A stretch of DNA of 25,488 bases from the IMG/VR virus record IMGVR_UViG_3300047284_000486, positions 1 through 25,488 of that record. One strand, 5' to 3'. Under the pieces are notes generated by a model. That model did no database searches and was not told where the DNA came from. It was given only the letters and a program-made list of their open reading frames with translations. Shown piece after piece: positions 3,172-23,375 of the stretch. Made by a program: the position numbers and the translations under genes. Within the stretch, counting starts at the first letter, position 1, and each line of letters starts with the position of its first letter. This stretch comes from a virus.

Positions 3172-3369
3172 GTGGAGACTATTCTGGTTCCGATTGCGGT
3201 TGCGGTTATTTCGGGACCGATAGTTGTTCTGCTGCAAAGGCTGCGTAAAGAGAACGCTGAGCAGCATGCCGAAGGCAGGGTGCTGCTTCGGAATGTTGCC
3301 CACAAGGTTGACAAAGTTGCATCAAAACTTGACGAACACATTGGATGGCATAAAGGGAAAGAGGAATAA
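3172..3369 (+). CDS. Membrane-anchored coiled-coil small protein
   Basis: The frame opens with GTG at 3172; no in-frame ATG precedes it after the upstream stop. The 65-residue product has a hydrophobic segment at about residues 4-21 (ILVPIAVAVISGPIVVLL). A charged helix follows (RLRKENAEQHAEG, then VDKVASKLDEHIGWH) with heptad-like spacing. One N-terminal helix plus a short coiled coil is a layout seen in small phage membrane proteins, some called holin- or spanin-like. With a two-helix candidate at 1114, this could be a second lysis component, but nothing proves it. The stop overlaps the portal start by one base. Confidence 0.5.
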   Translation: METILVPIAVAVISGPIVVLLQRLRKENAEQHAEGRVLLRNVAHKVDKVASKLDEHIGWHKGKEE

Positions 3370-5240: not shown

Positions 5241-6026
5241 ATGAGTAATATTGAAAACACTGTTGATACTGTTGCTGAGGCACCCCTAGAGGGGCAAGTT
5301 GAGGGAACGAGTGAGACAGGTGATGCCCCCGCTGTAGAACCGCGTGAGTATTTCGTTTGGGACGAACACGCTGACAAGCCCGTCAGATTGACTGTCGATG
5401 GCGAAGAAATCGAGGTTCCGTTGGCGGAGGCGCTCAACGGTTACCAGCGTCAAGCAGACTATACCCGCAAGACGCAGGAACTTGCTGAGCAACGAAGACA
5501 GGTGCAGTTCGCTGCCGCTTTGCAAGAGGCTTTGCAGAACGACCCGAAAGGCACCGTTGAACTGCTTTCACAACATTACGGCGTGAACAGCCAGCAACCC
5601 TCGGAAGAGGAACTGGAAATGATGGACCCCGTAGAAAAGCAGTATCGGCAACTTGAATCTAGGGTTCAAGCATTCGAACAGGAGAAAGCGATGCGAGAAC
5701 TTGAAAATCAGATTGCGTCTTTGTCAGGAAGATACGGTGAACTTTTTGACGCCAATGAGGTTGTTGCCAAAGCGTTAGCGACTGGCAACACAAACCTTGA
5801 AGCGGTGTACAAACAGATTGCTTTTGACCGCATCTACGAACAGACTCGTGGCAAGTCTGCGGCGCAAGCCAAGCAGGCTGAAGAAACGAAGAAGATTGTG
5901 GAAGCGAAACGAGAAGCGGCTGTTGTGTCCAAGGGTGCTTCGGCAAAAAGTGCAGATGTTTCTTCTAAACCCATCAAATCCGTTCGCGATGCTTTCGAAT
6001 CTGCTAAACGGCAGTTAGAGGGCTAG
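5241..6026 (+). CDS. Capsid scaffolding protein
   Basis: The 261-residue product is acidic and Gln/Glu-rich and sits between portal and coat, as scaffolds do. It starts with a low-complexity acidic segment. A short folded-looking part (VRLTVDGEEIEVPLAEALNG) and YQRQADYTRKTQELAEQRRQ follow, then long helices to about residue 215. The tail is Ala/Lys/Ser-rich (SVRDAFESAKRQLEG). The segment with TVDGEEIEVPL and ADYTRKTQEL is common in phage scaffolds. It would guide coat assembly and then leave the prohead. The basic C-terminal helix probably binds coat protein, by analogy to known scaffolds. Confidence 0.8.
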   Translation: MSNIENTVDTVAEAPLEGQVEGTSETGDAPAVEPREYFVWDEHADKPVRLTVDGEEIEVPLAEALNGYQRQADYTRKTQELAEQRRQVQFAAALQEALQNDPKGTVELLSQHYGVNSQQPSEEELEMMDPVEKQYRQLESRVQAFEQEKAMRELENQIASLSGRYGELFDANEVVAKALATGNTNLEAVYKQIAFDRIYEQTRGKSAAQAKQAEETKKIVEAKREAAVVSKGASAKSADVSSKPIKSVRDAFESAKRQLEG

Positions 6027-6054: not shown

Positions 6055-6999
6055 ATGGCTGGTAACGCAAATTTTGATGCGCTACTTTCCACGACCCTTG
6101 CGAACTACCGTTCGCAACTCACGGACAACGTGTTTACGGCTCGCCCGTTCACGTATTTCCTCATGGACAAGGGTCGTATCCGCATGCTCAACGGTGGTAC
6201 CAAAATCGTTGAGCCGCTCATCTACGGTCAGAACAGCACCGTCGCGTCGTACAGTGGTTACGACACGATTTCGCTGACTGCTCAGGATGGCATTTCGGCT
6301 GCCGAGTACGAATGGAAGCAGTACGCTGCGTCCATCGCAATCAGCGGTATCGAAGAAGCGAAGAACAACGGCGAGCAGGAAATCATCAACCTGCTGGAAG
6401 CCAAAATCATGCAGGCTGAAGAGTCGATGCGTGAAGGCTTCAACCAGATGTTCTTCAGCGATGGCACTGGCAACTCGGGCAAGAACTGGAACGGTCTTGG
6501 CAACATTGTTGAGTCTGGTAACACCGTTGGTGGTATCAACTCGGCTTCGGGTCAAGGCAACGACTGGTGGCGCTCGTACGAAGAGAACACCGCTGGTGCT
6601 CTCACGCTTGCTCAGATGGCGACTGCCTACAACAGCGTGTCGGTTGGCAATGACCACCCCGACATGATTCTTACGACTCAAACCCTGTTTGAGAAGTATG
6701 AGGCACTGTTGCAGCCGCAACTGCGCTACACCGACACCAAGACCGCAGATGCTGGTTTCCAGAACCTGCTGTTCAAGGCTGCTCCTGTTGTTTACGACGT
6801 GCACAACACCGCTGGTGTCGTGTACTTCCTCAACAGCAAGTACCTGACGCTTGTCGGTCATAGTGGCAAGTGGTTTGCTCAGACGGACTTCGTTCGCCCA
6901 GAGAACCTCGATGCTCGCTATGCGCTCATCATGTGCTACGGCAACCTGACTTGTCGCAACCGCGCCAAGCAAGGCAAACTCACGGCGAAGACCGCCTGA
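6055..6999 (+). CDS. Major capsid protein
   Basis: The 314-residue product lies directly after the scaffold gene and is followed by a strong hairpin, as coat genes often are. Features that fit an HK97-fold coat are an N-terminal segment with FTARPFTYFLMDKGR, beta strands carrying TKIVEPLIYGQN, and a long spine-like helix (IEEAKNNGEQEIINLLEAKI). A glycine-rich insertion with FSDGTGNSGKNWNGLGNIV follows, then PDMILTTQTLFEKYE and late strands around VYFLNSKYLTLVGHSGKW. Family assignment rests on these patterns and position; I cannot run a structural search. It would form the icosahedral shell. Confidence 0.9.
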   Translation: MAGNANFDALLSTTLANYRSQLTDNVFTARPFTYFLMDKGRIRMLNGGTKIVEPLIYGQNSTVASYSGYDTISLTAQDGISAAEYEWKQYAASIAISGIEEAKNNGEQEIINLLEAKIMQAEESMREGFNQMFFSDGTGNSGKNWNGLGNIVESGNTVGGINSASGQGNDWWRSYEENTAGALTLAQMATAYNSVSVGNDHPDMILTTQTLFEKYEALLQPQLRYTDTKTADAGFQNLLFKAAPVVYDVHNTAGVVYFLNSKYLTLVGHSGKWFAQTDFVRPENLDARYALIMCYGNLTCRNRAKQGKLTAKTA

Positions 7000-7597: not shown

Positions 7598-7825
7598 ATG
7601 AACGGTTCTAAACCAGCACACGCAATGTACGGCAAACCCGTCGATGGATACCGGCAGGCTGCACAAAGCCTCGCTGGTGCACGCTTACAGGCTGGTGGGG
7701 GTGAATACACGGGTCGCAACCGCTGCGTAGCGGATGGCGACACCTGCGAAGGTCCGAAAGCAAAGGGCACGCAGTACTGCATTGGGCATCTGCGTAAGGC
7801 TGCCAAAGGCGGTGATGTTGAATGA
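7598..7825 (+). CDS. Small Cys/His protein (75 aa), unknown function
   Basis: The product (MNGSKPAHAMYG start) has a C-terminal Cys/His set: RCVADGDTCEG then AKGTQYCIGHLRK, giving C-x6-C-x9-C-x2-H spacing that could bind one zinc. The short family ending in YC-GHLR is something I associate with phage head genes, but I cannot name it. The ATG at 7598 follows TAAGGGTG with very short spacing; GTG at 7595 or the ATG at 7628 are alternatives. It overlaps the adaptor gene by four bases (ATGA), which ties it to the connector module. Confidence 0.55.
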   Translation: MNGSKPAHAMYGKPVDGYRQAAQSLAGARLQAGGGEYTGRNRCVADGDTCEGPKAKGTQYCIGHLRKAAKGGDVE

Positions 7826-8511
7826 ATCTTGCTGACGTGCGCACGATGGTGCGCGACATTTCTGACTTGGACACGGTGGACCTGCCGAACAGTCTGCTGG
7901 ACACGTTCGTAAAAGAGGCGTTTCAACGCATTATTGCTTTGGAACGCCGATGGCCGTTTTACCAAGAAACGTACACATTGAACACGGTTGCCAATCAGCG
8001 TCCGTATTCGATTGCGTCAATTGGGGATATTCGCGAAATCATCTCAATTGTGGAGACCACAGCATCAGGCAACCGTTTCACTGAGATTGCTTACGATGAT
8101 GCCGAAGAGGTGTGGCTCGGCAACACGGATGTTGCGAGCCGACCGTACTTCTGGGCTGTGTGGGATGGACAGATTCACTTGTATCCGAAGCCTGATGGCG
8201 TGTATCCGCTGACTGTCCGCGCTTATCGCAACCCGTCGTACACATGGTTGACGAATACGGCTACTGAGATTGATGCAGATAACTGGTTTCACATCCTGTT
8301 GGCGTACTATGCGCTTGCGCGCGTGTATCAGCGTCAAGAGGATAACGAGATGGCGATGATGTATCAGCGTTCGTTTGAAGAGGGTGTGGCGATGGCTCGC
8401 CGCGATTTGATGAAGCCGCGGTCGCATCGACCGCTGCTTCTCTCTGGCGGCAAGAAGTATCCGACGATGCGTAGATGGTTGCAGACGCTGGGGGCGACGC
8501 TTGGCTCATGA
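7822..8511 (+). CDS. Head-tail adaptor (connector) protein
   Basis: The 229-residue product opens with DVRTMVRDISDLDTVDLPNS, LLDTFVKEAFQRIIALERRW and PFYQETYTL. This is the helical N-terminal pattern (VRD-then-acidic loop-then-long helix-then-RRWPF) seen in phage adaptor proteins of the SU10 adaptor / podovirus connector type. A beta-rich middle follows (IGDIREIISIVET, WDGQIHLYPKP), and then C-terminal helices (WFHILLAYYALARVYQRQ). It would dock under the portal and link the head to the nozzle. It couples through four-base overlaps to both neighbours, with the nozzle-like gene next, as expected for this module. The family name is from pattern memory. Confidence 0.75.
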   Translation: MNLADVRTMVRDISDLDTVDLPNSLLDTFVKEAFQRIIALERRWPFYQETYTLNTVANQRPYSIASIGDIREIISIVETTASGNRFTEIAYDDAEEVWLGNTDVASRPYFWAVWDGQIHLYPKPDGVYPLTVRAYRNPSYTWLTNTATEIDADNWFHILLAYYALARVYQRQEDNEMAMMYQRSFEEGVAMARRDLMKPRSHRPLLLSGGKKYPTMRRWLQTLGATLGS

Positions 8512-10118
8512 GCAGATTGCTGGCTGACCGATACGACGATTTTACGGGCGGGTTGAACCTGCGTGCCGACCAGTTTCAGTTGGCGAAGAACGAGTCGCCT
8601 GACATGTTGAATGTGGAGATTGACCCTCGTGGTGGGGTGTTTAGTCGTGGTGGGATGCACAGGTTGAATACGACTGCTGTGGCTGGGACGTGGGACCCGC
8701 AGCGTCTGTATGCGTTTTATGGTGATTCGTCGCGTTTGATGTTGGCTAATTCAACGAACGTGTTTTGGTCTTCGGGTGGCGATTTTACGAAGTTGGAGTA
8801 TTCGTCTGGTAATGCTGTGGCTTCTGCTTCTTCTCATGGTGCGTGCATGTATGCGTGGGGTGACACGCTGTATATCACGACTGGTGCTGCTTCAGGCAAA
8901 GTTGGCTACAGGTGGAAGACTGGTGACGCTTACGCTACGGCGTTGACAGCAAACGGTCCTGTTTGGCAACCGTACAACAACCCTGTTGGGAACCATTTCC
9001 CGAGGGCTGAGCATGTGATTACGCATGCCAACAAGTTGTTTGTGGCGCACACGTATGAGGATGGTGTGGCGTATCCAAACAGGTTGCGTTGGTCGCATGA
9101 GGGTTTGCCGGGTGACTGGATGGCTGACGATTACGTTGATTTCAACGGTGGCGGTTTAGGTATTAGGTCTCTTGCGATTGTTGCTGGTCAACTTGTGGTG
9201 TTCAAACCGAACGGCATCTATCTGCTTGTCGGTAACTCGTCGGACAACTTTCAGGTTGTGGAGTTGTCGGTGAATCTCGGTACGAACAATCATCACAGCA
9301 TGGCGCAGTCTGAGGATGGCGTGTATTTCTATTCGAATCCCGAGGGTGTGTTCTTTTATGATGGCACCAAGATTGTGGATGTGTTTGAGCCGCTTCGCCC
9401 ACTTGTGGACGAGCGGCTTTTGTCCACTGCTTCCACCGAGCCGTATTCGGTGTCGTGGATTGGTCGCCGTGCGTGGATTGCGTTGCCGTACGACCCGGAC
9501 AATACGGTGACTCAGCCGACACGGAACTATGTGTTTGACCCGTCTATCGGTTCGCGTGGTGCGTACACACAGTTCGCCACCCACGACGGTTACGGCGTGG
9601 TTGGTGGTTGCGACTGGACTGATGACAACGGTACTAACTATCGTGTTGCGTGTCATCCAACTCAGGCGCGCGTGTTGAAGGTTGATTTGTATGAAGAGGA
9701 GTTGGACAACATTTCTGGTACGGCAACCATTTTCAGTTCGTATTATCGCACCGGTTGGGTTGACGGGAACACGTATGCGCAGAAGAAAGTGTTTCGTCGC
9801 CCAGACATCGTTTTCAAGCAGGTTGATACGCAGCGTCTTGTGAATGTGAAGGTGTACCACAACTATGAGGAGGCGTCTGGTAACGAGCGTAAACAGTTTG
9901 ATGTTGTGTTGTCTGGTACGGGTACGGGCGCGTATTGGGGCACAGGTTTGTGGGGGACTGGTTTGTGGGGCGTGTCGTCTGAGGGTGTGAGTGTGAAACC
10001 GGGTCGCAATCTTGGTTTGGCTCGCAGTGTGCAGTTGCTGTTCACTGGTCCAACGAACGGCGGTTGGGGGATTGATTCAATTACCTACAAGTACAACAAT
10101 CGAAAGGTGAGTGGCTGA
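8508..10118 (+). CDS. Tail nozzle / tail tubular protein B-like
   Basis: I chose the ATG at 8508, which overlaps the adaptor stop as ATGA; an in-frame ATG at 8475 lies inside the adaptor gene. The 536-residue product begins with YDDFTGGLNLRADQF, then SPDMLNVEIDPRGGVFSRGG, a signature opening of podovirus nozzle proteins. Many beta-rich repeats follow (LYAFYGDSSRLMLAN, LYITTGAAS, LVVFKPNGIYLLVG, GVYFYSNPEGVFFYDG), as expected for a beta-propeller-like nozzle. Near the C-terminus is a WGTGLWGTGLWG repeat at about residues 480-492. It would cap the adaptor ring and form the exit channel. Gene order supports this. Confidence 0.75.
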   Translation: MSRLLADRYDDFTGGLNLRADQFQLAKNESPDMLNVEIDPRGGVFSRGGMHRLNTTAVAGTWDPQRLYAFYGDSSRLMLANSTNVFWSSGGDFTKLEYSSGNAVASASSHGACMYAWGDTLYITTGAASGKVGYRWKTGDAYATALTANGPVWQPYNNPVGNHFPRAEHVITHANKLFVAHTYEDGVAYPNRLRWSHEGLPGDWMADDYVDFNGGGLGIRSLAIVAGQLVVFKPNGIYLLVGNSSDNFQVVELSVNLGTNNHHSMAQSEDGVYFYSNPEGVFFYDGTKIVDVFEPLRPLVDERLLSTASTEPYSVSWIGRRAWIALPYDPDNTVTQPTRNYVFDPSIGSRGAYTQFATHDGYGVVGGCDWTDDNGTNYRVACHPTQARVLKVDLYEEELDNISGTATIFSSYYRTGWVDGNTYAQKKVFRRPDIVFKQVDTQRLVNVKVYHNYEEASGNERKQFDVVLSGTGTGAYWGTGLWGTGLWGVSSEGVSVKPGRNLGLARSVQLLFTGPTNGGWGIDSITYKYNNRKVSG

Positions 10119-10396: not shown

Positions 10397-10569
10397 GAAC
10401 ACCGTGGTCGTCGCCCATCATCAACACGTTGACGACGGATGATGCTGCTCGTTTGCAGCAGATTTTTATGTCGCTGTCGAAGGAGTTGGCGGAGATGCGG
10501 CGTGAGGTTGACGAGTTGAGGCGTGCAATGGGAAATATGAGTGCGGGGTCTTATGGCGTACGACCCTAG
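10393..10569 (+). CDS. 58-aa coiled-coil protein
   Basis: A short open frame opens with ATG at 10393, overlapping the preceding stop as ATGA, and stops at TAG 10567-10569. The product begins MRTPWSSPIINTLTTDDAAR and continues with a heptad-like helix (LQQIFMSLSKELAEMRREVD, then ELRRAM). Without this gene there would be a gap of about 150 bases in an otherwise gapless block, and the four-base overlap is the coupling used throughout. It overlaps the next gene by 17 bases if that gene starts at 10553. The role is unknown; oligomerising partner of the fibre-repeat protein is a guess. Confidence 0.7.
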   Translation: MRTPWSSPIINTLTTDDAARLQQIFMSLSKELAEMRREVDELRRAMGNMSAGSYGVRP

Positions 10570-10987
10570 TATTTACGAGGCTCGTCGTCGTCAGGCGACT
10601 GAAGGCTATTCTGCCACGGCTGCAGCGAATCAGTATTCGCGCACTCTCGCCCAGCAGCGTGGCGCACGCCAGCGGATGCAGGCGTTGCGTCAGTATGAGA
10701 CTGCACAACCGCAGTTGGTTCGCGGGTATTCGCAGAGGAATCTTGTGTCGCCTTCGGTTCGTAGCGGTTTGTTTAGCCGTGCGATGCAGGAGTTTGGTTC
10801 TGAGCGTGCACGTGGGTTGTCGGAGTTTGATTTGGGTCAGGCTGAACAGATGAGGGGGTTTGATTTGGAGGATGCCCGTTTGTTGCAGCAGTATCGTGCT
10901 GCGCTTGGGGATTTGGAGGCTGAGAAAGCAAGAGAGATAGCGGACGCTGCGAGGCAGTTGTTTGCGTTTAGAGCAGGAGCAGCATAA
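10553..10987 (+). CDS. Helical virion-type protein, unknown function (144 aa)
   Basis: The product (MAYDPSIYEARRRQATEGYS) is rich in Ala, Gln, Arg and Glu and predicted helical throughout. A central NLVSPSVRSGLFSRAMQEFG segment is flanked by long charged helices (DLEAEKAREIADAARQLFAF). I chose ATG 10553 over an in-frame GTG at 10541. It is the first of four consecutive genes for helical proteins that end with the giant gene, the arrangement of internal (ejection) proteins in podoviruses. I do not recognise the family. It overlaps the next gene by one base. Confidence 0.55.
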   Translation: MAYDPSIYEARRRQATEGYSATAAANQYSRTLAQQRGARQRMQALRQYETAQPQLVRGYSQRNLVSPSVRSGLFSRAMQEFGSERARGLSEFDLGQAEQMRGFDLEDARLLQQYRAALGDLEAEKAREIADAARQLFAFRAGAA

Positions 10988-12120
10988 TGGCACCACGTGG
11001 AATAAGCAAATATGACCCGCGCGACCCAGAAGCATCTCGCATTGCTTTGGGTTTGCGCGCGGCTGGAATGGGTTCTGGCAACACAACCAGTCAGGTTAGA
11101 CAAACCGTTGACCCGAATGAGTCTTACAAAAAATCCATAGAACAAGCCTCTGATTATCAGGTTTCACAAGCAATGAAAAACTATGAAGCAATGATGTCAA
11201 ACTTTTTGAAAGGCTTTTCTGGTGGCGGAACTGCCGCGAATGCAGACGATTTGTTGGCTAAAAGAAAATATGAAGACGAACTAGCCAAAGAGCGTCGCTC
11301 GATTGATGCGTACCGAAACATGCTTTCTAGTGGCGGATATCGCAGCGGAATGGACACGCTTCTTGGGATGATTGGCACCGAGGGTGGGCGCCAAACTGGA
11401 GAGGTAAACAAGGCATACAACGATGCTTTGGCAAATATCGCTGCCGGGTACGGTCAGGCGCAGCAAACTACGGATGTTGGGTTCAATACGTTGAATCAGT
11501 TTTTGCGTCAGAACCCGAATAATCCGTATGCCAATGTGCAGGTGTCCGCTGGTGCGGCACCTGATGCGATGGAGCAGATTCTGTCTGCGTATGGTGTGTC
11601 GGCTGACCCTGTGCGTGCACAGGTTTCTGCCGAGCAGGCTGCAGCCCAGCAGGGTGCTGCTGGATTCCAGAATCTATTGGATGTGTTGGGTGCTTCGGCT
11701 CAGCAGTCTGATTTGTCGCGGTTGGCTGAGTCACAAATGGCGCAACGTTTGGCTGGCGAGTCTCTTGCTGGTCAACAGGCTGGTTTGCGTGCGCAGGCTT
11801 CGCGTGCGCAGGCTGATGCTTTGTCTGCGATTCAGGCTCAGTTGGCTCAAGCCCGTCTTGAGCAGGAGGCTAATGCTGTTGCTCGTCGTCAAAGCATTGA
11901 GGATGCGATTGTGGCTGCGGGTGGACAGTTGCCCGTTCCGGCAGCGGCTGCAGCAGCAAGCCCAGCGGCAACCCCAGCGGCAACCCCAGCGGTTGCTGCG
12001 CCTGCCGTCACACAGATTGGTTCGCCGGGTGTCAAGGGCGGTACGCCCGACTATTTGCGTGTTATTGCTGAGCAGATGGCGCGACCACAGGAACCGAAGA
12101 AAAAGAAGAAAAAGAAGTAG
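10987..12120 (+). CDS. Ala/Gln-rich internal virion protein candidate with poly-Lys tail
   Basis: The 377-residue product is mostly helical. Residues 1-60 contain KYDPRDPEASRIALGLRAAG, the middle has long helices, and about residues 218-310 are a dense Ala/Gln/Arg coiled-coil region (SLAGQQAGLRAQASRAQADA). Near the C-terminus are Pro/Ala/Thr repeats (SPAATPAATPAVAAPAV), a short folded-looking part (GTPDYLRVIAEQMARP) and a final PKKKKKKK run. A basic tail like this could hold DNA or the inner membrane. A TAATG stop-start overlap and a CAGGAG ribosome site give a clear start. The role as a DNA-ejection or core protein is inferred from neighbours and composition; no enzyme motif is visible. Confidence 0.5.
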   Translation: MAPRGISKYDPRDPEASRIALGLRAAGMGSGNTTSQVRQTVDPNESYKKSIEQASDYQVSQAMKNYEAMMSNFLKGFSGGGTAANADDLLAKRKYEDELAKERRSIDAYRNMLSSGGYRSGMDTLLGMIGTEGGRQTGEVNKAYNDALANIAAGYGQAQQTTDVGFNTLNQFLRQNPNNPYANVQVSAGAAPDAMEQILSAYGVSADPVRAQVSAEQAAAQQGAAGFQNLLDVLGASAQQSDLSRLAESQMAQRLAGESLAGQQAGLRAQASRAQADALSAIQAQLAQARLEQEANAVARRQSIEDAIVAAGGQLPVPAAAAAASPAATPAATPAVAAPAVTQIGSPGVKGGTPDYLRVIAEQMARPQEPKKKKKKK

Positions 12121-12141: not shown

Positions 12142-13332
12142 ATGGCTGACGGGCAGATAAACCCATACGACTTCTTGTCGCTTGTTGCAGCCCAATCTGC
12201 TGCCCAAAAAAATCCGACCCAAAGCGGCATCAATCGTCTATTCATGCCAGAAATTGGGGTACTGACGGGCACATTCTACGGTGACACTGGCGGTGTTTCG
12301 CAGCAGCAGGAAGCCGCAACGATGCTGCAGTTGGCTCCCGATATTCTCCGAATCTCAAACATTGCTCAAAGCAACCCAGATGATATTCGTGCGCAGATTG
12401 CGCGCAAGATTGTGTACGAAAAACAACCCGTGTGGGAAGTAAAGCGTCTTATTCAGAAGTATGTTTTGGATGCGTCTGCTGCGGGTGAGGATATTGATAC
12501 GGCTGCGACATCAACGGAGTTGATGGCTTTTGCTGACAAGATTCAGAATCAAAGCGATGCTCTTGATGCAAGTTATGCGAAGGCTTCCATCACCAAAGGC
12601 AATGATGTTTTTTCGCAGGCTGGTTTGCCTTCGCCGCAGGAAAGGTTTTCGCCAGACCAGTTGTTGCCCGAGTTTTTTGCAAAATATGCGACTGGAACTC
12701 AGGAGCGCCAAAGCAAACTTGATGCCCTAAAACGTAATCAATCGGCTCGTTCTGCTGCCGTAAAGTTTTTGGGCGACCAGTCGGGAACAGTTGATGTTCG
12801 TTCTGCTGAGTTGCCAAAGTATGAAACGCCGGGATATTTTGATTCGGACCGCAGAACAAAAGAGGGTTTGAAGTCAACATCGCAAGAAATTGAACGTTTG
12901 CAAAGCGATTATCAAAAGGCTTTGGCTGATTTGAACCGCGTAACAAAATCGTATAAGCCGCTTTCGAAGGGAAGCATGACCCAGCAGCAGGCTATTGCCG
13001 CCGCCCAGAAACGTGTTGATGCAACAAAGAAGTTGTTTGATGACAGGTTTGCTGCAGCCAAAGAACGAGGAATGTACAGCCCAGCAAAAATGGCTCAAAC
13101 CGGTGCACAGGATGTTGAAACAATTCGTTTCAAGGAAATTGCTAGTCGGGCAGCAGCCAGACCAGACACAAGTGCGGAGCGTTTGGATTTGGTCAAGCGA
13201 CAGAAGTATGAAGACGATGTGGCCGCTGCGGTTGCCCGAAAGATTTCGGAACAAGCAACTTCTATTGGTTATACGCCATTGATTCAGGCTTTGATGACTC
13301 GTGCAAATTTTGTTGGTTTGGGCGGTAGTTGA
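12142..13332 (+). CDS. Helical internal virion protein candidate (396 aa)
   Basis: The product begins MADGQINPYDFLSLVAAQSA and has an early beta/loop region (MPEIGVLTGTFYGDTGGVS), then long helices with coiled-coil character (TSQEIERLQSDYQKALADLN and neighbours). It ends in IGYTPLIQALMTRANFVGLG. There is no transmembrane segment or catalytic motif that I can recognise. It is the last gene before the giant one and overlaps it by three bases (TGATG), which suggests translational coupling and a shared complex. A 21-base gap separates it from the poly-Lys gene, with no strong ribosome site visible there. Confidence 0.5.
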   Translation: MADGQINPYDFLSLVAAQSAAQKNPTQSGINRLFMPEIGVLTGTFYGDTGGVSQQQEAATMLQLAPDILRISNIAQSNPDDIRAQIARKIVYEKQPVWEVKRLIQKYVLDASAAGEDIDTAATSTELMAFADKIQNQSDALDASYAKASITKGNDVFSQAGLPSPQERFSPDQLLPEFFAKYATGTQERQSKLDALKRNQSARSAAVKFLGDQSGTVDVRSAELPKYETPGYFDSDRRTKEGLKSTSQEIERLQSDYQKALADLNRVTKSYKPLSKGSMTQQQAIAAAQKRVDATKKLFDDRFAAAKERGMYSPAKMAQTGAQDVETIRFKEIASRAAARPDTSAERLDLVKRQKYEDDVAAAVARKISEQATSIGYTPLIQALMTRANFVGLGGS

Positions 13333-16300
13333 TGGCTGCCGTTGCTGGCGGTCAAAACTTTGACGAGTTGCTGAAGCGACTCGCCAAAGTAAAACCGCTT
13401 CCGGGTTCTTCCGCAGACGCATCTGGGTTTGTCACCCAGCAGATGAGTACTGGTTTGGATTTGCGTGATTCGGTAATCAACTCATTCCGAAATTCTGGTG
13501 GTTTGGATTACCAACAAATTAGAGATGTGGCTGCCGGTGGGTCTCCCGTTACTTCTGGTCCGCGTGGGTTGCTTGCTTCCACGTTGAATAGCGCACCCGC
13601 AAAGGCTGTTTTGAATGGTTTGAATACCATTGGCGTTCCGATGCGTCTTGTCAACAGCACGCTGAAGGAAGTGAAAGATGCTTTGGATAGCGACCCGAAC
13701 ACGAAAGCGGGTTGGAATGATTACTGGAAGCAAGTAAAGGACCCAACTTTCGGCTTTGGTCGAGTGGTGCCGATGAAGGGTTGGGGTGGGCGGCTTATTG
13801 GTTTTGCTGGCGATTTGATTACAGACCCAATCAACTGGCTGACTTTGGGTTCCGCTGGCGCTTTGCGCACAGCGGGTAATCTTGGGGCGCAGGGGGCTTT
13901 CCGTGCTGGTGTTCGGGAATCTTTGGAGGCATCTGGTCGTTTGAGTGCTGGCGCTGTTGGCAAAACGTCGTTGCGTGAAACTTTGGGTGTTCGCACTCTT
14001 GCCGGTGCGGATGGAAGATTTGCTTTGGCTGAAGAAGTTCGCCGTTTGGGCGGAACTGCTAGCGAAGTTGCTGGGGTTGCCGCAAGAGGAAAACTTGCCG
14101 TACCAAAAGATATTGCCGAGGTTATGGGTTTGGGCAAGTCGGGCATTTATGTTGCGGGCACAAAGGTTCGTCTGCCGGGTTCGGGTTTGCTGTCGGAGAT
14201 GACGGAAAAAACTTTGACGAAGATGCGTCTTGGTGTTTTGCGTTCTGGTGTTGGCGACATTTTGCAGCGCGCTTTTACGCGCCGCGGTGTTGCGGCAGAC
14301 ACAAAGCGGTTCAGAATGCTTCTTTCAAAAGGCATGCTGCCAGACGATGAGGTGCAACTTGCAACAATGCTGCTGAACTCGGACACAAGGTTCCGTGCTG
14401 CGGCAAACATTGCACGCGAGTCAACAAAACGCAGAGTGATTGATTACGCCGCAGACGCAGATGTGGATGCAACACGCAACACCGTGTATCGGGTCATGGA
14501 GAACCCTGATGGTGTTGTGGCATCCGAGGCTGAACGTAGGGCTGCCGAGAAGATTCGCAATTTCTTTATGACCGAGTTGGATTTTGCCAACAAGCGTTTC
14601 AAGGCAGTTGATGATGGGTATATTCCAAGAAGTTTGAACAACTTCCTTCCACACGTGTTGAGCGATGCAGCAAAAGCGGAGTTTGATAAGGCATACGCAA
14701 ATCCAGCGTTGGAACAGGTTCTGACCTATTTGAAAGTGAATCCTTTGGAGGCTCAGGGTTCGTTCAAGCACCGCTTTATTACTGCTGACCAAGAGTTCCT
14801 TGGCGTTCCCGGAAGCGTACACAAGGGGACTATTGACGGAATCAATGCGGTGACTCGTGAAAAACTTGGATTTGATTTGTTTGAAACTGACGTCATCAGA
14901 ATGATGACGAAGTATGCCGACACGATTGGTGGTGCTGCCGGAAGCGCAGAAATGATGCGACTGATGAAGGAGTCGCGTTTCCTTTTGGATGCTCGCAGGG
15001 TTGCGGCGATTGACCCGCAGTGGATGCTTGACGCAAAGAACGGTTTGGCTGTGGTGACCAAGTCGCTTCACGATGAGGGCGGGGCTTTGGTTGATTCTGT
15101 TGAGTCTGTTATTGGTCGAATGGAGAAATCGTTTGATGACGGTGCGCTTGGTCAGATGGTTGGTCGCGAAACTGCTGCTGCACAAAAAGAACTCAACGAA
15201 ATTGGCAAGGGTTTGGGTAAGCCAGTAAAGAATTTCATTGATGAGCCAATAACTTTTGTTGACTTTGAGGGCAATACGTATCGCCCAAGCGACATGAATT
15301 TGTTGTTGCGCGTTGACGCTGAGCGTCAAGCGCTGATTGACGCGGTGAACAAATTCAACCTCAAGCAGGCAGAATTTTCTGCCCTGTTTGCTCCCGATGG
15401 TGGGGGCGAGATGAACATGATTCATCAGATTCTGACATCCGAACACAAGCGGCTTACCGACGCCTTTGATGCGGCGCAAGCAAAACTATTTGCCTTGCGT
15501 CAAGGCATTGCCGAGGGCAAGGAAACCACAGAAACACTCCAAGCATTGCGTGTTCAGTCCAAGGAGGCTTTGAAGGCTGCACGTGAGGCAACGAAGAAGT
15601 ATTCTGGCACATTGCGAGATTACGAGTTTTGGGCAGATGATTTTGGCACTTGGATGCAGGAGTCGCTGAAGCGTGTTGGTCAATTGCGTGAAGACATAAC
15701 CCGCGACCCGGTCACCGGCAACATTCTGGAGAAGTCGCTTATTCCTGTGCGCGGTCGAAGTTTGGTTCCAGAAGATGTTTCTTCGGAAACAAAAGAAGTT
15801 CTCACCCGCATTATTGATGCGGAAGAACGCAAAATTCTTCCACCGGGCATGGGTTTGAACGAAAACTGGTTGAGTCAAACATTTGGAAACAATTCCGACC
15901 CAAGCCTTTCCAAACAGTTGCTTATTGAAACCGCCCCACAACTGGTTGGTCAACCGGCGCGAATCAACCAAATTACTTCGCAGTCCGTTACGCAATCGGT
16001 AATCAGGGGTCTTACATCGGCAGACAATATTGAGCAATTGTCCGATTCGTTTGGGTGGATGACAATTCGACTTCTGAAAGAAGCAGAACGTCGTGGCGGT
16101 GTTGAAGCGCGAGAAGCGTTGGCGCGACAATTGGCTGAGGGTGTTGGTGGTATCGGTCAGATGTGGCAACGTGCCAAAAAGCAGGTCGACATCCTTGACT
16201 CTGTGTACGACACGATTTCTCTTGTTGCGAGACGGAAGCCGACTGCCGCTATCAAGGAATTTGGGAAACAGGCTGTTGATGTTTCCGAACAAATTGCCGC

Positions 16301-19300
16301 GCTCACGCGGCAAATTGATTCGGCTAACGAAAAGATTCTGGAACTGTCAAAGTCGACTAGCGGAAATATTGGTTTGGCTGCAAGGGAAATGTTGAGTGAC
16401 CTTGACGATTTCGCAGCATCAACATTTAGGACTGCGGACACAATAACTCAAGAAAGTCTTGACGAATATATTGCTCGCGTTGACGCTGTGTTTGATGGCT
16501 TTGTTGAGCAGGGAATTGTTCGCGAGGAAGAGATTTTCAATTTGCGCGCTGTCGCAACTTTTCAGTTGCGCCAAGGTTTTGTCACCGGCGACGTAAACAG
16601 AAACACGCTCAATGAATACAGAAACATTCTCAACGATGAATTGGGCACACACATTGACGGATTCATGCTCAAAAACAGAAAGACCGCCAATCAGCGTTCA
16701 ATGGCCGAAATTGGTGGTCTGCAAAAAACTATCCGAGAAAACCAGCAGAAGATTGATAAATTGCTGAAAAGCGATTCTGGCGACAATGATTATGTGAAAT
16801 ATACGGTTGCCGCTTTGTCGGGCGATTTGCGCACACAGGTCTCTGCTGTTGCTGAAACTCTTCAGGAATACCAGATATTCAATGAAGCGTATTTTTGGTT
16901 TTCCGCTTTTCAAAATCTTGCACCAGCAGGCGTCGTTATCCCAGAAACAGTGTGGTCGCACCTGCTCGCGTCAACGGCAGAAACACAATACGACGCTATT
17001 CAGCAGGGTCTTGATGATGCCATGCGAGCCAGAGAACTTGCTTTTGAAATGTGGAACGGAAGCATTTCCAAGTTGCCAAAACCAGAGCAGGCAAATGCTC
17101 TTGCGTTGGCGGTTGAATCATTGCCGATGGAAGATAGGCGGTTGATGAACCGATTTTTCGGTACATTGATTAGCGGTCAAGAATACAAAGAAATTAGCGA
17201 CCTCGACCGCGTGGTCCGTCAGGACCCGCGGTACACGCAGTTGCTGAATGAAATTGCGGACGTTGTTACTGGTAGGGCAACTCGCGCTGGTTCGCTGGCA
17301 CCCGGTGTTGTGGGCGGCTTGGGGGCTGCTGGTCGAGAGGCTGCTCCGCAAGCCGTAACATCAGGAAGAGTAAACGCTTCGTTGCTCATTGCTGACATTA
17401 GGAACGAATCTTCGTTGAAAAAAGTTAGAGGGTTGTTGACAACAACACACAAACGAACTGGGGCAAGATTTGGCGATGGCTCACTTGTGCAGAAGAAATG
17501 GCTAACGCAGAAAGAGGCTGAGGATTTTCTTGTTCGATTGCAGGATTTGGAAGTTGATGCACGCTTGCGGGTAAAAGAAATTACCGCAATGGTAAAAGAG
17601 AATTCCAAGTCCAAGAATAAGCGTCAGATGCAGGCGGAGATTCGTGGTGACGAATTTGGTTTGAGCGGATTGTTTAGGGCTGCCACCCAAAGCCGTGCCA
17701 ATGGTACGGGAGCAAGGGTTAGCGAATGGTTTGCTCGTGCAATCGGTGGAGGAAAAACAGCGGAGGAAGCCAAGGCTCTTGGTTCCCGTGTTTACACAGG
17801 CGTTGGCGGCAAGTATCGCACGACGGGCACATTCGCAATCAACCAATACGGTAACTCTGGTGACATCATCATGGGTGGAACGTTTGCTAATGTCACGGGA
17901 GATATCGAAAAACCTTTGGCTCGGCAGTACAAGTACATCACCGAATCAGAGTCGCACTATGGACAGGCATACGACCGTCTTGCTAAGCGCAAGACTGCTT
18001 TGCGCGCATTGATGCGTGACTCAACCGTCAGTGAAGAAATTGCGGTCGGCAGACTTCCTGACGGAACTCTGATTGATGAAAGAGGGAATGCGATTGTTGG
18101 TCGCGTGGACACGGAGGGTGTGCTCGGACCGATGAGTTATATCATTGCCTTGGAGGGTCAACTTGACGAGTATCGTCAAGCACTCAAGCAATTCGGCATT
18201 GACGACATGGAGTTCAAGAAAATCAAAGCGCTTGAAGATGGGGCTTTCAAAGTCAAGAGTCGTGCAACTGCAGCAGAAAAAGAAATTGCGAGACTTCAGC
18301 AGGAAGATTACGAATTGTTCAAGGCTTCTCGCGACCCACAACAGGTCGCCTACATTCAAGCGATTCTTCGCGGCGAGTACGACGAGCCGCAGCCAGCAAA
18401 CCTGCACCCAAAGGTTCGGGATGCAGTTCAAGGACTAATTGAATCACGTAGGACTCAAGAAAAGATTGAATCGACTCGTGGCTATTTGAGTTCGATTGAT
18501 AGGCGTTCTTTGCACAAATTCATCAAGCATCTTGCTGGATACAACTTGGGACACAATACGGATACCGGAATGGGTGGTTTGCGTGAGTTGTCATCGCGTG
18601 TTGTGAATCCGAACGCGCCACAAAAGAGATTGTATACGTCTGTTGAGTTTGCCAATTTGAAGAAGTTTGCGCAAAGAATTGCCGAACAGCAAATCAATAC
18701 TCCCGAAGGATTCATAAAAGGCACCCCTGACTTTATTCTTGTCAAAGCAACAAGGGCACCATTTGTGCCAGAAGAGGCTGCCCAAATAATTGCTTCACGT
18801 AGAAACGACTACATTTTCATAAAGGACAATTTTAGATTCACCGACGAAATGCTTGCTGCGTTTTTGTCGGCAAACAAAAACGCCAATCTGCCAGAAAATC
18901 AACTTGCTTTGGTCCGCAGGGCGATTGACGATAGGACTGTTGATATCTGGAAAGCAGATACCACCGCGCCGCTGAGGTATGGGGATGCGTTTGACCCAGA
19001 GGAAACACTTGCGGTGTTGACAATAACAAGCACCGGGGACACCAGAATTTTCAACGGCACCGATGTCTTTGGATATTCTGCGCCGGTCAGGGATACGACC
19101 ACATTCCCGACGATGGAGATTGATGGCGTCACCATTCCCATCACTTTTGACGAGTTGGAATGGGACCAGTTGTTTGCCAAGCCAATGGATGTTCGTCAGG
19201 TTCGCAATAAGTTGGCAGCAAAAGAAGCCGAACGAAAGAAGTTGTGGTCTACCACGTTTGGCACAAATGAAAAGAAGATGGCAAAGTTGGATAAACTTGA

Positions 19301-22172
19301 CGCCGAAATTGAGGACTTGAAGATTCAAATTGTTCGCAATGATGCGAACAAACAAATGGAAATGGTCCGCCGTGCCCGCGCAATGCGAAACTACTTTGAC
19401 CAACCAGACGTCAAGAAGAAACTTGGTTTGAAGGCTGACGCATCACCAGAAAAAACTTTTGACCAATGGGCTGACATGAATGCAAAGAACATGTCAATTC
19501 GCGACACGCCTCAATTTGTTGAGGACCGCGTAAAAGAATTAGACAACGCTTGGGATAGTTCGTACGAGGCAAAGGTTATTTCGGAGCATCGCGCGGCGAG
19601 CACAAAGGCAAAGAACTCTGCCATGACATTGCAGACTGCTTTGGCTGGGGGAAGGGCGGCTTGGCTTGCCGACAAGGTAAATGCCATCGAGATTGCCCGT
19701 CAACGTAGTTTGGAAAAGGCTGGACAGTCGGTTGAAGAGGCATTGAAGAGGTTGGAGCGTTTTGCCGTTCAAATTGTTTCAAGGGAAAGTTCTGTTGCTT
19801 CGGAGATTGCTGCGCAAAAACTGAATGTGAAAGTCGAGAGTCTTGCGGAACTGCTTCGCGACCCGGCATTCCGACCGGGCGCTTTGAATCAGGTGATGAC
19901 TGAATACGACAAGGCAATCAATGAAATAGTAAAGAAGTCTGGTTTGATTGAATCGGATTTGTTTGGTCCATCTGGTTTGCTCAGGTCGGTAACTGGAGAA
20001 GAAATTGTTACCGGTCAGGTTCAAAATGTGCACGCCGAAAAGATTATGGATGCGCTTGACGCAAGAGCCAAAGTCATCCGCGAATCAATTGAAAAGGGTT
20101 TGCGCAAGCCTGCTTCTGCTGCCGCAGCGCAGGCGGAACGCGCTGGTGCTGCTGCGCGCGAAGGAAACGTTCAGTTGTATGGTGCTGAACTTTACGATAG
20201 AACGATTCGGTCGGAGGTCGCGGCAAATACTGTTCAGTTGAAGAACTGGGAGAGGGCAGTGAAGGAGGCTCAAACGGCTGCAGAACTGACAGAGAAAGAA
20301 CTTAGGCAGTTTGAGGCAGCGGTTCTAAGCGGCAAGGAACCCAAGGCAAAAAGCCTCGGCTATGTTCGTGAGTATTATCGCGCCAAGAAGAACGCTCAGC
20401 GTGCAGCCGAAGGCGCACGCCAAGCATCGGATGCGCTTGAAGCATCTATGGCTAGGTTTGATTCCGCAATGTCTGCGTTCCAGAATCGTGGCGTCACAAG
20501 ACTGCGTGCCACAGAAGCGTATTCACGTGCACAGAACTTGAAGAAGTTGCGCAACAGCATGGATGCCTCCATCAAGAAGATGAAGGATGACAAGATTCTC
20601 AACACTGAGTTTGACGAATTTGGCGACAGCATTGAACGCCTGTTTGAAGAGTTGAACAAGATGGCTAAGTTCGGTGACGAGATTGATGAGATTTCCGCTC
20701 TCCGCGGTGTGCTCGTTCAGTATCAGGAACAGCGTGCGGACTGGTTGATTCGTTATCAGCAGCAGGCTGACACAAGGGCAAGAATCAAAGTTGTTGAGGA
20801 TGCATCAAAGACGATAAAGGATTTGGGTCCGTTGGCTTACTTGAATCCAGTGCTAACCGAAACGAATGCTTTTACGTTGGTGAACAAATTAGAGAAGGGT
20901 TTTGTTCAGTTTGGTGAACAATTCCCCAACCTAATGGCTGACCCGAGGGTCATGGAGATTTTTGAGAATGCCCACAGGTTGCGTGACCCAGCGTTTGCGC
21001 GTGCCGCGCAACGCTTCATGGGTCCGTACACAAAGTTCTTCAAGGCTTGGGCTGTTGCTACGCCGGGTTTCCATGTGCGCAACTCTTTCAGCAACGGATT
21101 CATGTTGTTTGCTGCTGGCGGCAGACCAGACAGCCTGTATCGAGGGCTGTTGGCGTTCAGGGCGCTGAAAGAAGCGATTGACAAGGGCGAATCTTTTGAG
21201 ACACATGTTGCCAAATTGTCCGCAGAGGAACAGGTTCGAGTTCGTGGTGCGTATTTTGCGATGATGGGTTCTGGTGGCGGTTTGATGTCTGATGTCGATT
21301 TGTCTACGGGTAGCAGATTGTATGCAAACAAGTTCACCAAGAAGTTGCAAAAGTTGGGTATTGCGGCGGACAATCACGCACGGTTCATGTTGGCTTACGA
21401 TGGCATGGACAACGGAATGGATGCTCTCACTGCTGCTGCCCGTGTGAAGCGGTTTATGGTTGACTACGAGGACACTTCGGTGGCTGATGCGTATATGCGT
21501 CAGATTATGCCGTTCTGGATGTGGACAAGCCGCAACCTGCCGCTTCAGATTCAGAACATTTTCTTGAACCCGAAGGCGTACCGTTTCTACACGGCGATGA
21601 GCAACAACTTCCGCGACGAAGATGAGACAAACAAGTTGCCGAAGTATTTGCGTGAAGTTGGTGCGTTTGCTTTGCCGGGTGGGAAAACCTATTTTTCTCC
21701 AGACCTACCATTTAGTCGTGTCGGTCAACAGATTGAGCAGATTCAGTCGCCTCGTCGCCTTGCTGCCGACGTGAACCCGCTGTTGCGGGTTCCGTTGGAG
21801 GTGATGCTTTCAAACAAGAAGTTCTATTCCGATATTCCATTCAAAGAGGGGCTACAGAAAGCCGATGGTCCAGTCGCTAATCTTGCTTCGTATCTTGCTC
21901 AGCCGTTCGGTCAGGGTGGGACAATGAAAGACGGTGGCAGGGGTGTCACCGACAAGGCGATGTACTCGCTGATGAACTACATTCCGATTGCTGGACAGTT
22001 TGAACGTCTGGTTCCGTCAACCGAAACATATCAGTCAAGACCGGGGTCAACACGTTTGGCGCAATACTTTGGTGTTCCCGTTCGCGAAATGACCGACCAG
22101 ATGAAGCAGCAGGAGTTGCAACGAAGGTTATACGAAATCAATGCACTACGAAGACAGCAGGGGCAGCAATGA
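13332..22172 (+). CDS. Giant structural/ejection protein candidate (2946 aa)
   Basis: This one continuous frame of 8.8 kb has no stop or obvious frameshift and starts at ATG 13332, overlapping the previous stop. Residues 148-190 carry MKGWGGRLIGFAGDLITDP, then INWLTLGSAGALRTAGN, a Gly/Ala-rich hydrophobic segment seen at the front of very large phage proteins. Residues of about 600-2450 are long charged helices. The C-terminal 400 residues are more conserved-looking: ATPGFHVRNSFSNGF near residue 2575 and QIMPFWMWTSRNLPLQIQN near 2725. This 'PGFHxRN ... PFWxWxxxNLP' pair recurs in large actinophage and other phage virion proteins, from memory. No lysozyme, protease or polymerase motif is evident. 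Position after three helical genes and size suggest the main internal protein that exits into the host envelope ahead of DNA, as podovirus ejection proteins do. Confidence 0.65.
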   Translation: MAAVAGGQNFDELLKRLAKVKPLPGSSADASGFVTQQMSTGLDLRDSVINSFRNSGGLDYQQIRDVAAGGSPVTSGPRGLLASTLNSAPAKAVLNGLNTIGVPMRLVNSTLKEVKDALDSDPNTKAGWNDYWKQVKDPTFGFGRVVPMKGWGGRLIGFAGDLITDPINWLTLGSAGALRTAGNLGAQGAFRAGVRESLEASGRLSAGAVGKTSLRETLGVRTLAGADGRFALAEEVRRLGGTASEVAGVAARGKLAVPKDIAEVMGLGKSGIYVAGTKVRLPGSGLLSEMTEKTLTKMRLGVLRSGVGDILQRAFTRRGVAADTKRFRMLLSKGMLPDDEVQLATMLLNSDTRFRAAANIARESTKRRVIDYAADADVDATRNTVYRVMENPDGVVASEAERRAAEKIRNFFMTELDFANKRFKAVDDGYIPRSLNNFLPHVLSDAAKAEFDKAYANPALEQVLTYLKVNPLEAQGSFKHRFITADQEFLGVPGSVHKGTIDGINAVTREKLGFDLFETDVIRMMTKYADTIGGAAGSAEMMRLMKESRFLLDARRVAAIDPQWMLDAKNGLAVVTKSLHDEGGALVDSVESVIGRMEKSFDDGALGQMVGRETAAAQKELNEIGKGLGKPVKNFIDEPITFVDFEGNTYRPSDMNLLLRVDAERQALIDAVNKFNLKQAEFSALFAPDGGGEMNMIHQILTSEHKRLTDAFDAAQAKLFALRQGIAEGKETTETLQALRVQSKEALKAAREATKKYSGTLRDYEFWADDFGTWMQESLKRVGQLREDITRDPVTGNILEKSLIPVRGRSLVPEDVSSETKEVLTRIIDAEERKILPPGMGLNENWLSQTFGNNSDPSLSKQLLIETAPQLVGQPARINQITSQSVTQSVIRGLTSADNIEQLSDSFGWMTIRLLKEAERRGGVEAREALARQLAEGVGGIGQMWQRAKKQVDILDSVYDTISLVARRKPTAAIKEFGKQAVDVSEQIAALTRQIDSANEKILELSKSTSGNIGLAAREMLSDLDDFAASTFRTADTITQESLDEYIARVDAVFDGFVEQGIVREEEIFNLRAVATFQLRQGFVTGDVNRNTLNEYRNILNDELGTHIDGFMLKNRKTANQRSMAEIGGLQKTIRENQQKIDKLLKSDSGDNDYVKYTVAALSGDLRTQVSAVAETLQEYQIFNEAYFWFSAFQNLAPAGVVIPETVWSHLLASTAETQYDAIQQGLDDAMRARELAFEMWNGSISKLPKPEQANALALAVESLPMEDRRLMNRFFGTLISGQEYKEISDLDRVVRQDPRYTQLLNEIADVVTGRATRAGSLAPGVVGGLGAAGREAAPQAVTSGRVNASLLIADIRNESSLKKVRGLLTTTHKRTGARFGDGSLVQKKWLTQKEAEDFLVRLQDLEVDARLRVKEITAMVKENSKSKNKRQMQAEIRGDEFGLSGLFRAATQSRANGTGARVSEWFARAIGGGKTAEEAKALGSRVYTGVGGKYRTTGTFAINQYGNSGDIIMGGTFANVTGDIEKPLARQYKYITESESHYGQAYDRLAKRKTALRALMRDSTVSEEIAVGRLPDGTLIDERGNAIVGRVDTEGVLGPMSYIIALEGQLDEYRQALKQFGIDDMEFKKIKALEDGAFKVKSRATAAEKEIARLQQEDYELFKASRDPQQVAYIQAILRGEYDEPQPANLHPKVRDAVQGLIESRRTQEKIESTRGYLSSIDRRSLHKFIKHLAGYNLGHNTDTGMGGLRELSSRVVNPNAPQKRLYTSVEFANLKKFAQRIAEQQINTPEGFIKGTPDFILVKATRAPFVPEEAAQIIASRRNDYIFIKDNFRFTDEMLAAFLSANKNANLPENQLALVRRAIDDRTVDIWKADTTAPLRYGDAFDPEETLAVLTITSTGDTRIFNGTDVFGYSAPVRDTTTFPTMEIDGVTIPITFDELEWDQLFAKPMDVRQVRNKLAAKEAERKKLWSTTFGTNEKKMAKLDKLDAEIEDLKIQIVRNDANKQMEMVRRARAMRNYFDQPDVKKKLGLKADASPEKTFDQWADMNAKNMSIRDTPQFVEDRVKELDNAWDSSYEAKVISEHRAASTKAKNSAMTLQTALAGGRAAWLADKVNAIEIARQRSLEKAGQSVEEALKRLERFAVQIVSRESSVASEIAAQKLNVKVESLAELLRDPAFRPGALNQVMTEYDKAINEIVKKSGLIESDLFGPSGLLRSVTGEEIVTGQVQNVHAEKIMDALDARAKVIRESIEKGLRKPASAAAAQAERAGAAAREGNVQLYGAELYDRTIRSEVAANTVQLKNWERAVKEAQTAAELTEKELRQFEAAVLSGKEPKAKSLGYVREYYRAKKNAQRAAEGARQASDALEASMARFDSAMSAFQNRGVTRLRATEAYSRAQNLKKLRNSMDASIKKMKDDKILNTEFDEFGDSIERLFEELNKMAKFGDEIDEISALRGVLVQYQEQRADWLIRYQQQADTRARIKVVEDASKTIKDLGPLAYLNPVLTETNAFTLVNKLEKGFVQFGEQFPNLMADPRVMEIFENAHRLRDPAFARAAQRFMGPYTKFFKAWAVATPGFHVRNSFSNGFMLFAAGGRPDSLYRGLLAFRALKEAIDKGESFETHVAKLSAEEQVRVRGAYFAMMGSGGGLMSDVDLSTGSRLYANKFTKKLQKLGIAADNHARFMLAYDGMDNGMDALTAAARVKRFMVDYEDTSVADAYMRQIMPFWMWTSRNLPLQIQNIFLNPKAYRFYTAMSNNFRDEDETNKLPKYLREVGAFALPGGKTYFSPDLPFSRVGQQIEQIQSPRRLAADVNPLLRVPLEVMLSNKKFYSDIPFKEGLQKADGPVANLASYLAQPFGQGGTMKDGGRGVTDKAMYSLMNYIPIAGQFERLVPSTETYQSRPGSTRLAQYFGVPVREMTDQMKQQELQRRLYEINALRRQQGQQ

Positions 22173-22702
22173 GAACGTACACAGGTAATCGTGATGGTGA
22201 CCACGGGAAGGCTCGACCGGGGTTGCTGGAGTTCGTCAAGACTGTTGAGCAGGTGACGGATAATGCGTTGTGGAACAACGGCACGTATGCGAGTCGCCCG
22301 ATGCGTGGCAAGCAGTCGTTGAGCGTGCACGCCACTGGGCGTGCCGTAGACCTGTCGTGGCGCAAGATGGGCAGGAAAGGCAAGCGGAACGGTTTGGAGG
22401 TGTCACGCTGGTTTGCGGACCTGCTGGTGAACAACGATGACTTGCTTGGCGTGGAGTGCGTTTTGGATTACCACCCCGCCCCGTGGGGGCGTGGCTGGTT
22501 GTGTGACCGTGGCGAGTGGCAGTCGTATAAGACTGCTACCTTGGGCGGCGCCCCCTCAGGGGACTGGCTGCACGTGGAGTTGACGCCGCGTATGGCGGAT
22601 AGTCCAACGCTGGTGAGAGAGGCGTGGTCTGATTTGGCTGACTCTGGGCTGCTGGCTGGGATGCCAATCCCGGTGCGAAAGACGGCAGAAAAACGTCAAT
22701 AA
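22169..22702 (+). CDS. M15-type zinc peptidase, probable endolysin
   Basis: The 177-residue product has SVHATGRAVD at residues 52-61, matching the SxHxxGxAxD signature of the M15 (VanX/DacA-like) peptidase family, with H54 and D61 as zinc ligands. DWLHVEL at about 132-138 provides the third ligand H135 and E137. Such enzymes cut peptide bonds in the peptidoglycan stem or cross-bridge. No binding domain, signal peptide or membrane segment is visible, so it would need a holin; candidates are at 1114 and 3172. It starts within the end of the giant gene (ATGA overlap), so a virion-associated, wall-degrading role is an alternative to a lysis role. It is the last rightward gene and its end overlaps the convergent gene. 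Confidence 0.85.
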   Translation: MRTYTGNRDGDHGKARPGLLEFVKTVEQVTDNALWNNGTYASRPMRGKQSLSVHATGRAVDLSWRKMGRKGKRNGLEVSRWFADLLVNNDDLLGVECVLDYHPAPWGRGWLCDRGEWQSYKTATLGGAPSGDWLHVELTPRMADSPTLVREAWSDLADSGLLAGMPIPVRKTAEKRQ

Positions 22703-23209: not shown

Positions 23210-23375
23210 GAGTCTTCCCTCCTTTGTTGTGAATGTAGATGGTGTTCTCTGGTAGACCATTGACTGTGACACCTTGACCCATCTCCACGTCATCAAAATG
23301 CGCAGCAAGAATTTTGACAATCTTCGCCACATCAATCGCCCTGTCGAATCCCAGTGTCACCTGCCGAAAAGACAT
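23190..23375 (-). CDS. Small protein of unknown function (61 aa)
   Basis: The start at 23375 is supported by an AGGAG site six bases upstream (23382-23386). The product reads MSFRQVTLGFDRAIDVAKIV, then KILAAHFDDVEMGQG, and ends HNKGGKTRVSRKR: an alpha/beta-looking core with a basic tail. It overlaps the upstream gene by 44 bases and the downstream one by 20 bases, large for this phage. It is accepted because of the ribosome site and its regular composition. The function is unknown. Confidence 0.55.
   Translation of the reverse strand: MSFRQVTLGFDRAIDVAKIVKILAAHFDDVEMGQGVTVNGLPENTIYIHNKGGKTRVSRKR
23217..23225 (-). promoter_or_regulatory. Ribosome binding site fixing GTG start at 23209
   Basis: AAAGGAGGG on the minus strand, seven bases before the GTG. 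It lies inside the coding end of the preceding gene and argues against longer or shorter starts. Confidence 0.75.

Follow-up and report, generated by a model that had tools for sequence, protein, structure and literature searches.

A giant late protein of an environmental podovirus, probably an ejection protein with a gp16-like module

What is the job of a protein of 2946 residues that is encoded at the end of the virion genes of a podovirus and in which common domain searches find no enzyme? The question is raised by IMG/VR record IMGVR_UViG_3300047284_000486, a complete virus record of 25,488 bases that is called the window here. We consider it roughly 75% probable that the product serves a short-tailed phage as its large ejection (internal core) protein. 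This assessment is based on the position of the gene, its synteny, relatives in podoviruses proven by electron microscopy (EM), and a profile match between the N-terminal module and gp16 of phage T7.

The giant gene and its place in the gene order

The open reading frame of the giant runs from an ATG start to a stop at 13332..22172 on the plus strand, as are all parts of the gene cited below, and is proposed to encode a gp16-like ejection protein. A TTG located 3 bases upstream of the ATG at 13332 is an alternative start and would yield 2947 residues. The earlier note had described a single uninterrupted frame of 2946 codons here, and this description holds. The closest relative (L005, 2941 aa) can be aligned end to end with 51–73% identity and few gaps, and substitutions between the two proteins' genes show conservation of codon positions in the order 2 > 1 > 3 in the N-terminal, middle and C-terminal parts. 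Because the alignment is full-length and the coding pattern of substitutions includes the middle, this is a genuine gene. At its start it overlaps with the stop codon of the gene in front (TGATG), at its end with the start codon of the endolysin gene (ATGA), and both overlaps suggest coupled translation.

The neighbouring genes, also on the plus strand, encode the large terminase (1339..2937), a portal of the SU10/P22 type (3369..5198), a scaffolding protein (5241..6026), the major capsid protein (6055..6999), a head–tail adaptor (SU10_adaptor, E 1.4e-21; 7822..8511), a nozzle or tail-tube-B-like protein (8475..10118) homologous to gp25 of Arthrobacter phage Jasmine (E 8e-45), and three partners of the giant, namely P1 (148 aa; 10541..10987), which is homologous to Jasmine gp27, P2 (377 aa; 10987..12120) and P3 (396 aa; 12142..13332), the latter two being neighbours kept in relatives. 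After the giant follows a peptidase-type endolysin (22169..22702), for which weak matches indicate a D-Ala-D-Ala carboxypeptidase-like or M15-like enzyme. Since the set contains an SU10/P22-type portal, an SU10 adaptor and a nozzle, the virus, judged from its gene content, is a podovirus. The missing tape measure, correctly reported in the earlier note, is therefore expected and needs no explanation; the gene set is that of a short tail, and no long-tail genes were recognized in the structural run. The note had also placed three Ala/Gln-rich helical genes before the giant and the endolysin behind it; P1 to P3 (14–19% alanine, 8–11% glutamine) and the peptidase-type enzyme agree with both statements.

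The order portal–scaffold–capsid–adaptor–nozzle–P1–P2–P3–giant–endolysin was found in 22 loci, and the 25 commonest gene orders around the giant all fit it, most of them as truncated versions. The giant thus stands last in the run of virion genes, behind the adaptor, the nozzle and the small helical core genes, which is the position of ejection proteins of the T7 gp16 type. P1 to P3 had no match among T7 gp14 and gp15, P22 gp7 and gp20 and the Mx8 proteins. A scan of bacterial genomes for relatives of the giant returned only one fragment, in an Acidobacteria MAG.

Other parts of the window also merit description. The capsid protein is closest to that of MW202803 and of Mx8-like podoviruses, and Jasmine is more distant. 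The late structural proteins of Mx8 and Stenotrophomonas phage BUCT555 (loci L224 and L225), both with capsid proteins related to that of the window, are much smaller than the giant, the last one having just 583 aa in Mx8 and the largest 860 aa in BUCT555. Neither conserved module of the giant, described below, matched Mx8 p57 or the late genes of BUCT555. Upstream of the terminase, 42-890 encodes a glycine-rich protein (Gly_rich_2, E 1e-19), a candidate fibre tip; glycine-rich domains are common in fibre tips. On the minus strand, 23335-24246 encodes a sigma-70 region 4 (E 8e-6) fused to a DUF1599 or nucleotide-modification-associated domain (E 0.002; phrog_1485, 4e-13), which is an unusual combination, and 24212-24760 a protein matching phrog_13596 (function unknown; E 4e-27).

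Two conserved modules around a variable middle

Relatives of the giant were gathered from phage records and from family scans of IMG/VR. The 146 complete ones have 931–3173 aa, and an N module precedes a C module in every one of them (146/146). The window giant, like the giants of the Jasmine gp29 type, carries both modules in one frame with the N module first. Its N module (residues 1–640; 13332..15251) is kept in the family, and its C module (residues 2481–2946; 20772..22169) is the most conserved part of the protein; both are predicted to be almost wholly helical. Between them lies a charged, hypervariable middle without known domain (residues 641–2480; 15252..20771), which measures 1,840 residues here and from 105 to 2,177 residues across the family, evolves fast and is shared among close relatives only. 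The long charged middle noted earlier is thus real, and hypervariable as well. The two C-terminal motifs of the note, PGFHxRN and PFWxWxxxNLP, exist as PGFHVRN (residues 2578–2584; 21063..21083) and PFWMWTSRNLP (residues 2727–2737; 21510..21542). Both lie in the C module and are conserved, and 60 family members have an invariant P, R and N in the former. The N-terminal hydrophobic Gly/Ala segment also exists, with a hydrophobicity that is only weak (best 19-residue mean 0.93).

When the giant and 20 diverse relatives were searched against Pfam, PHROGs, NCBIfam and PDB sequences, the sole informative hit was a ComEA-type domain in one of the relatives. None of these proteins, the middle included, showed an enzyme domain, and the earlier impression that no lysozyme or polymerase domain is obvious in the giant was confirmed in Pfam, PHROGs and PDB sequences. 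This relative is the giant of L038 (3308-11968), whose C end carries a DNA-binding helix-hairpin-helix of the ComEA type (residues about 2810–2886, E 7e-25), and this suits a DNA-handling role of the giants. No known fold was found for the C module, whose predicted structure gave only unconvincing helical matches in the PDB, with Z under 5. In a viral structure library, only members of the giant's own family rose above noise.

Among isolated phages, members occur in Jasmine, Adat, Brad, Nellie and others that infect Arthrobacter, in Microbacterium phage Shocker and in Cellulosimicrobium phage DS1. With the giants of Jasmine, Shocker and DS1, HHalign matched the C module at 99% (E 3e-18) and the N module at 96.6% (E 5e-10). 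EM has shown Jasmine and its cluster to be podoviral with a short stubby tail of 10.3 nm, then the sole podoviruses among thousands of actinobacteriophages examined, and the Jasmine giant is the last gene of the virion module (PMC5513430, PMC5794937).

The N module and gp16 of T7

A profile of 75 N-module sequences was compared by HHalign with a profile of eight gp16-type proteins (those of T7, gh-1, JSF18, PHB01, SeaP4 and UNO-SLW2, phiKMV gp37 and LKA1 gp48), giving a probability of 87%, an E of 3.7e-6 and a score of 61.1; as 28 profile pairs were compared in all, a corrected E would be near 1e-4. Control scores were much lower, reaching at most 26.8 in 78 column shuffles, 31.6 in 79 block shuffles, 18.6 with the reversed profile and 21.7 with ten unrelated large phage ORFs. 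Single gp16 sequences matched the N module weakly or not at all (E 0.003 for T7 alone, 0.00015 to 0.3 for the others), and the single P22 gp16 sequence had no HHalign match to it. The profile alignment is collinear across three motifs, although only the region of motif 2 scored strongly. Motif 1 (residues 148–173, MKGWGGRLIGFAGDLITDPINWLTLG; 13773..13850) is aligned with GLGAKLSAGIIGAGVDPLSYVPMVG of T7 gp16 at about 325–351; within it WGGRLIGFAGDLITDPINWLTLG pairs with the T7 stretch, and a D and a P are invariant in 8/8 gp16-type proteins. Motif 2 (residues 437–441, NFLPH; 14640..14654) is aligned with TYVPH (664–668), its core FLPH pairing with YVPH. Motif 3 (residues 516–528, LFETDVIRMMTKY; 14877..14915) is aligned with gp16 at about 794–806, where FETDVIRMMTKY pairs with a stretch resembling D-x-x-MFRIMPAY. 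Independently of this alignment, the PHROG profile of gp16, phrog_342, has just two matches in the window, both inside the giant frame and collinear, one at motif 2 (14520-14717) and one at motif 3 (14874-15158), with E values of 0.02 and 0.11. From these comparisons of sequence profiles, the N module appears to be homologous to the ejection protein gp16 of T7.

Structural comparison gave less. A model of the N module (pLDDT 65) aligned with the T7 gp16 chain 9jyy_I at Z 6.6 and an rmsd of 7.1 over 197 residues, a Z that is within chance for helical proteins. The register, with model residues 208–559 on chain residues 507–837, fits motif 3. T7 gp16 was absent from the top 50 of a plain Foldseek search with the same model.

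T7 gp16 consists of an SLT domain (1–156), a first membrane region (243–410), a cytoplasmic part (411–1118) and a second membrane region (1119–1290); mutations at 737–761, within the cytoplasmic part, release a brake on DNA entry (PMC8954989). Motif 1 falls in the first membrane region, and motifs 2 and 3 in the cytoplasmic part. Pfam finds the SLT domain in T7 gp16 and nothing in the giant; this transglycosylase is variable among gp16s and absent in P22 and Sf6 (PMC8954989). By simple hydropathy, strong segments like those of T7 gp16 (1.3–1.4) are absent, the best value in the N module being 0.93, and near the C end the mean of the C-module family is at most 0.43. Predicted membrane segments near the C end are reported for the gp16-like homologues surveyed (PMC8954989), and the weak hydropathy there is why the giant is not filed as gp16 proper. 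The C module had no significant match to gp16, also when the C-terminal part of gp16 was used alone; a low-threshold alignment that pairs PFWMWTSRNLP with T7 QFKSFTIKSLN was kept out of the evidence. Without an SLT domain, with weaker hydrophobic segments and with no match for its C module, the giant is not a plain gp16; it appears to share a homologous module with gp16 and probably works like it.

Possible function and known systems

The earlier note had suggested a new type of DNA-ejection conduit. Position, synteny, relatives in EM-proven podoviruses and the gp16 profile match give good support to its first half, a podovirus ejection (core) protein; the strongest points are the family as such, its occurrence in podoviruses of actinobacteria seen by EM, and the gp16 similarity of the N module. 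'New type' goes too far, as the N module appears homologous to an ejection protein already described. The novelty lies in the giant, size-variable architecture and its spread, phages of actinobacteria included. From the parallels described, we infer a location in the virion, ejection and membrane crossing for the giant, as well as roles for its middle and C module. The protein would be stored inside the head, above the portal, along with P1 to P3. At adsorption, it would be threaded, partly unfolded, through portal, adaptor and nozzle ahead of the DNA and would refold in the host envelope and cytoplasm, where giant and partners could form or hold a passage for genome entry; these steps of storage, ejection and refolding are modelled on T7 (PMC11784390, PMC8954989). 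The N module would be the counterpart of the gp16 part comprising the first membrane segment and the DNA-entry-brake region. The C module probably has a second job, perhaps self-assembly or partner contact. The middle, a fast-evolving helical insertion, may lie exposed inside the cell or cross the envelope. It could determine reach or provide functions specific to a lineage, and it could match the host envelope in length or contain cargo.

Several other functions have to be weighed. The giant could be a polyvalent effector-carrying virion protein, packaged and injected, whose main work is on host targets or defences via domains in the middle. The entries closest to it in the viral structure library bear the name 'Large polyvalent protein associated domain-containing protein', its middle evolves fast as in conflict proteins, and phage polyvalent proteins occur among late genes (PMC5512222). 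However, no enzyme domain was detected in the window giant or the 20 diverse relatives, and the terminal modules show the pattern of an ejection protein; LPD38 (PF18857) had no match in the giant, in a search in which the control likewise matched nowhere. We consider this improbable as the main function, and it overlaps partly with an ejection protein because a polyvalent effector too would be ejected. Existing labels point elsewhere, to a tail fibre or a determinant of host specificity: 27/33 C-module members match phrog_19395 ('tail fiber protein; host specificity'), and the C module matches PP_25 of cyanophage PP, labelled 'tail fiber' (E 1e-8). Yet fibres are beta-rich, whereas both conserved modules are predicted to be almost all helical; the N module matches gp16, the glycine-rich domain is carried by the separate gene at 42-890, and the PP label looks like a guess from position, so that a fibre is very improbable.

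The two remaining alternatives are scarcely credible. An N4-type virion RNA polymerase would be similar in size, from the same kind of virus and in a late gene position, but searches of Pfam, PHROGs, NCBIfam and PDB sequences gave no RNA polymerase match, and the motif patterns of single-subunit enzymes (DxxGR, RxxxK...YG) are absent. A tape measure of a long-tailed phage would likewise be a long helical protein encoded late in the structural run; against it stand the SU10-type adaptor and nozzle, a run without long-tail genes, and relatives with both modules that are podoviruses by EM.

With an ejection protein as the function we prefer, a likely role can be assigned to a gene that ranks among the largest of many environmental podoviruses and currently carries the label hypothetical, tail fibre or chromosome segregation; the family is widespread and mostly unannotated. 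GenBank labels of its members include 'chromosome segregation' (L003:23805-27743) and 'tail fiber' (L054:16740-20201), which look wrong and are poor guides. This function would also extend gp16-like ejection proteins to podoviruses of actinobacteria, while a recent review calls ejection proteins a typical trait of podoviruses that infect Gram-negative bacteria (PMC8954989). Jasmine-type phages, whose host is a laboratory Arthrobacter strain, make the idea directly testable, namely that a protein of 190–330 kDa is packed, unfolded and ejected before the DNA, with the middle setting reach. To our knowledge, podovirus DNA entry into single-membrane actinobacteria is unexplained. More tentatively, and with some doubt on our part, the giants may form a widespread class of ejection proteins built of two end modules, one of them in common with gp16, around a length-tunable middle (~100–2,200 residues) that would adapt DNA passage to different envelopes, including those of single-membrane actinobacteria.

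Known systems resemble the giant to different degrees. The virion RNA polymerases of N4 (about 3,500 residues; PMC12633501) and DEV (3,398 residues; PMC10925440) are podovirus giants ejected with the DNA, whereas the giant here lacks polymerase features; at ~3,400–3,500 residues, they refute the earlier claim that it is larger than any known podovirus core protein. Cyanophage PP PP_25 (1153 aa) and QKE60843 of Arthronema virus TR020 (1091 aa) carry the C module (E 1e-8) and, immediately ahead of it, a weak trace of the N module, with hardly any insertion between the two; PP_26 and PP_27 were considered as separate N modules and rejected. The 'chromosome segregation' protein of MW202803 (1312 aa) and UOF81946 of MW202795 (1106 aa) belong to the family with a short middle; the former lies before a lysis gene, a position as in the window, and its name looks wrong, perhaps owing to coiled coils. 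T7 gp16 (1318 aa), phiKMV gp37 and LKA1 gp48 resemble the giant's N module over about 325–840 of gp16, and T7 gp16, like the giant, is encoded late, behind the nozzle gene and the small core genes. The giant differs in having neither an SLT domain nor strong hydrophobic segments, and its middle comprises 1,840 residues. Closest in design are Jasmine gp29 (1803 aa), Shocker gp37 (1743 aa) and DS1 QSJ04773 (1783 aa), all uncharacterized 'hypothetical proteins'. They are about 1,100–1,200 residues shorter than the window giant, their middle cannot be aligned with it, and P2 and P3 have no match in Jasmine, whereas nozzle and P1 are homologous. Like the window giant, these three proteins contain both modules, and their genes stand in the same surrounding order of nozzle, P1, giant and endolysin.
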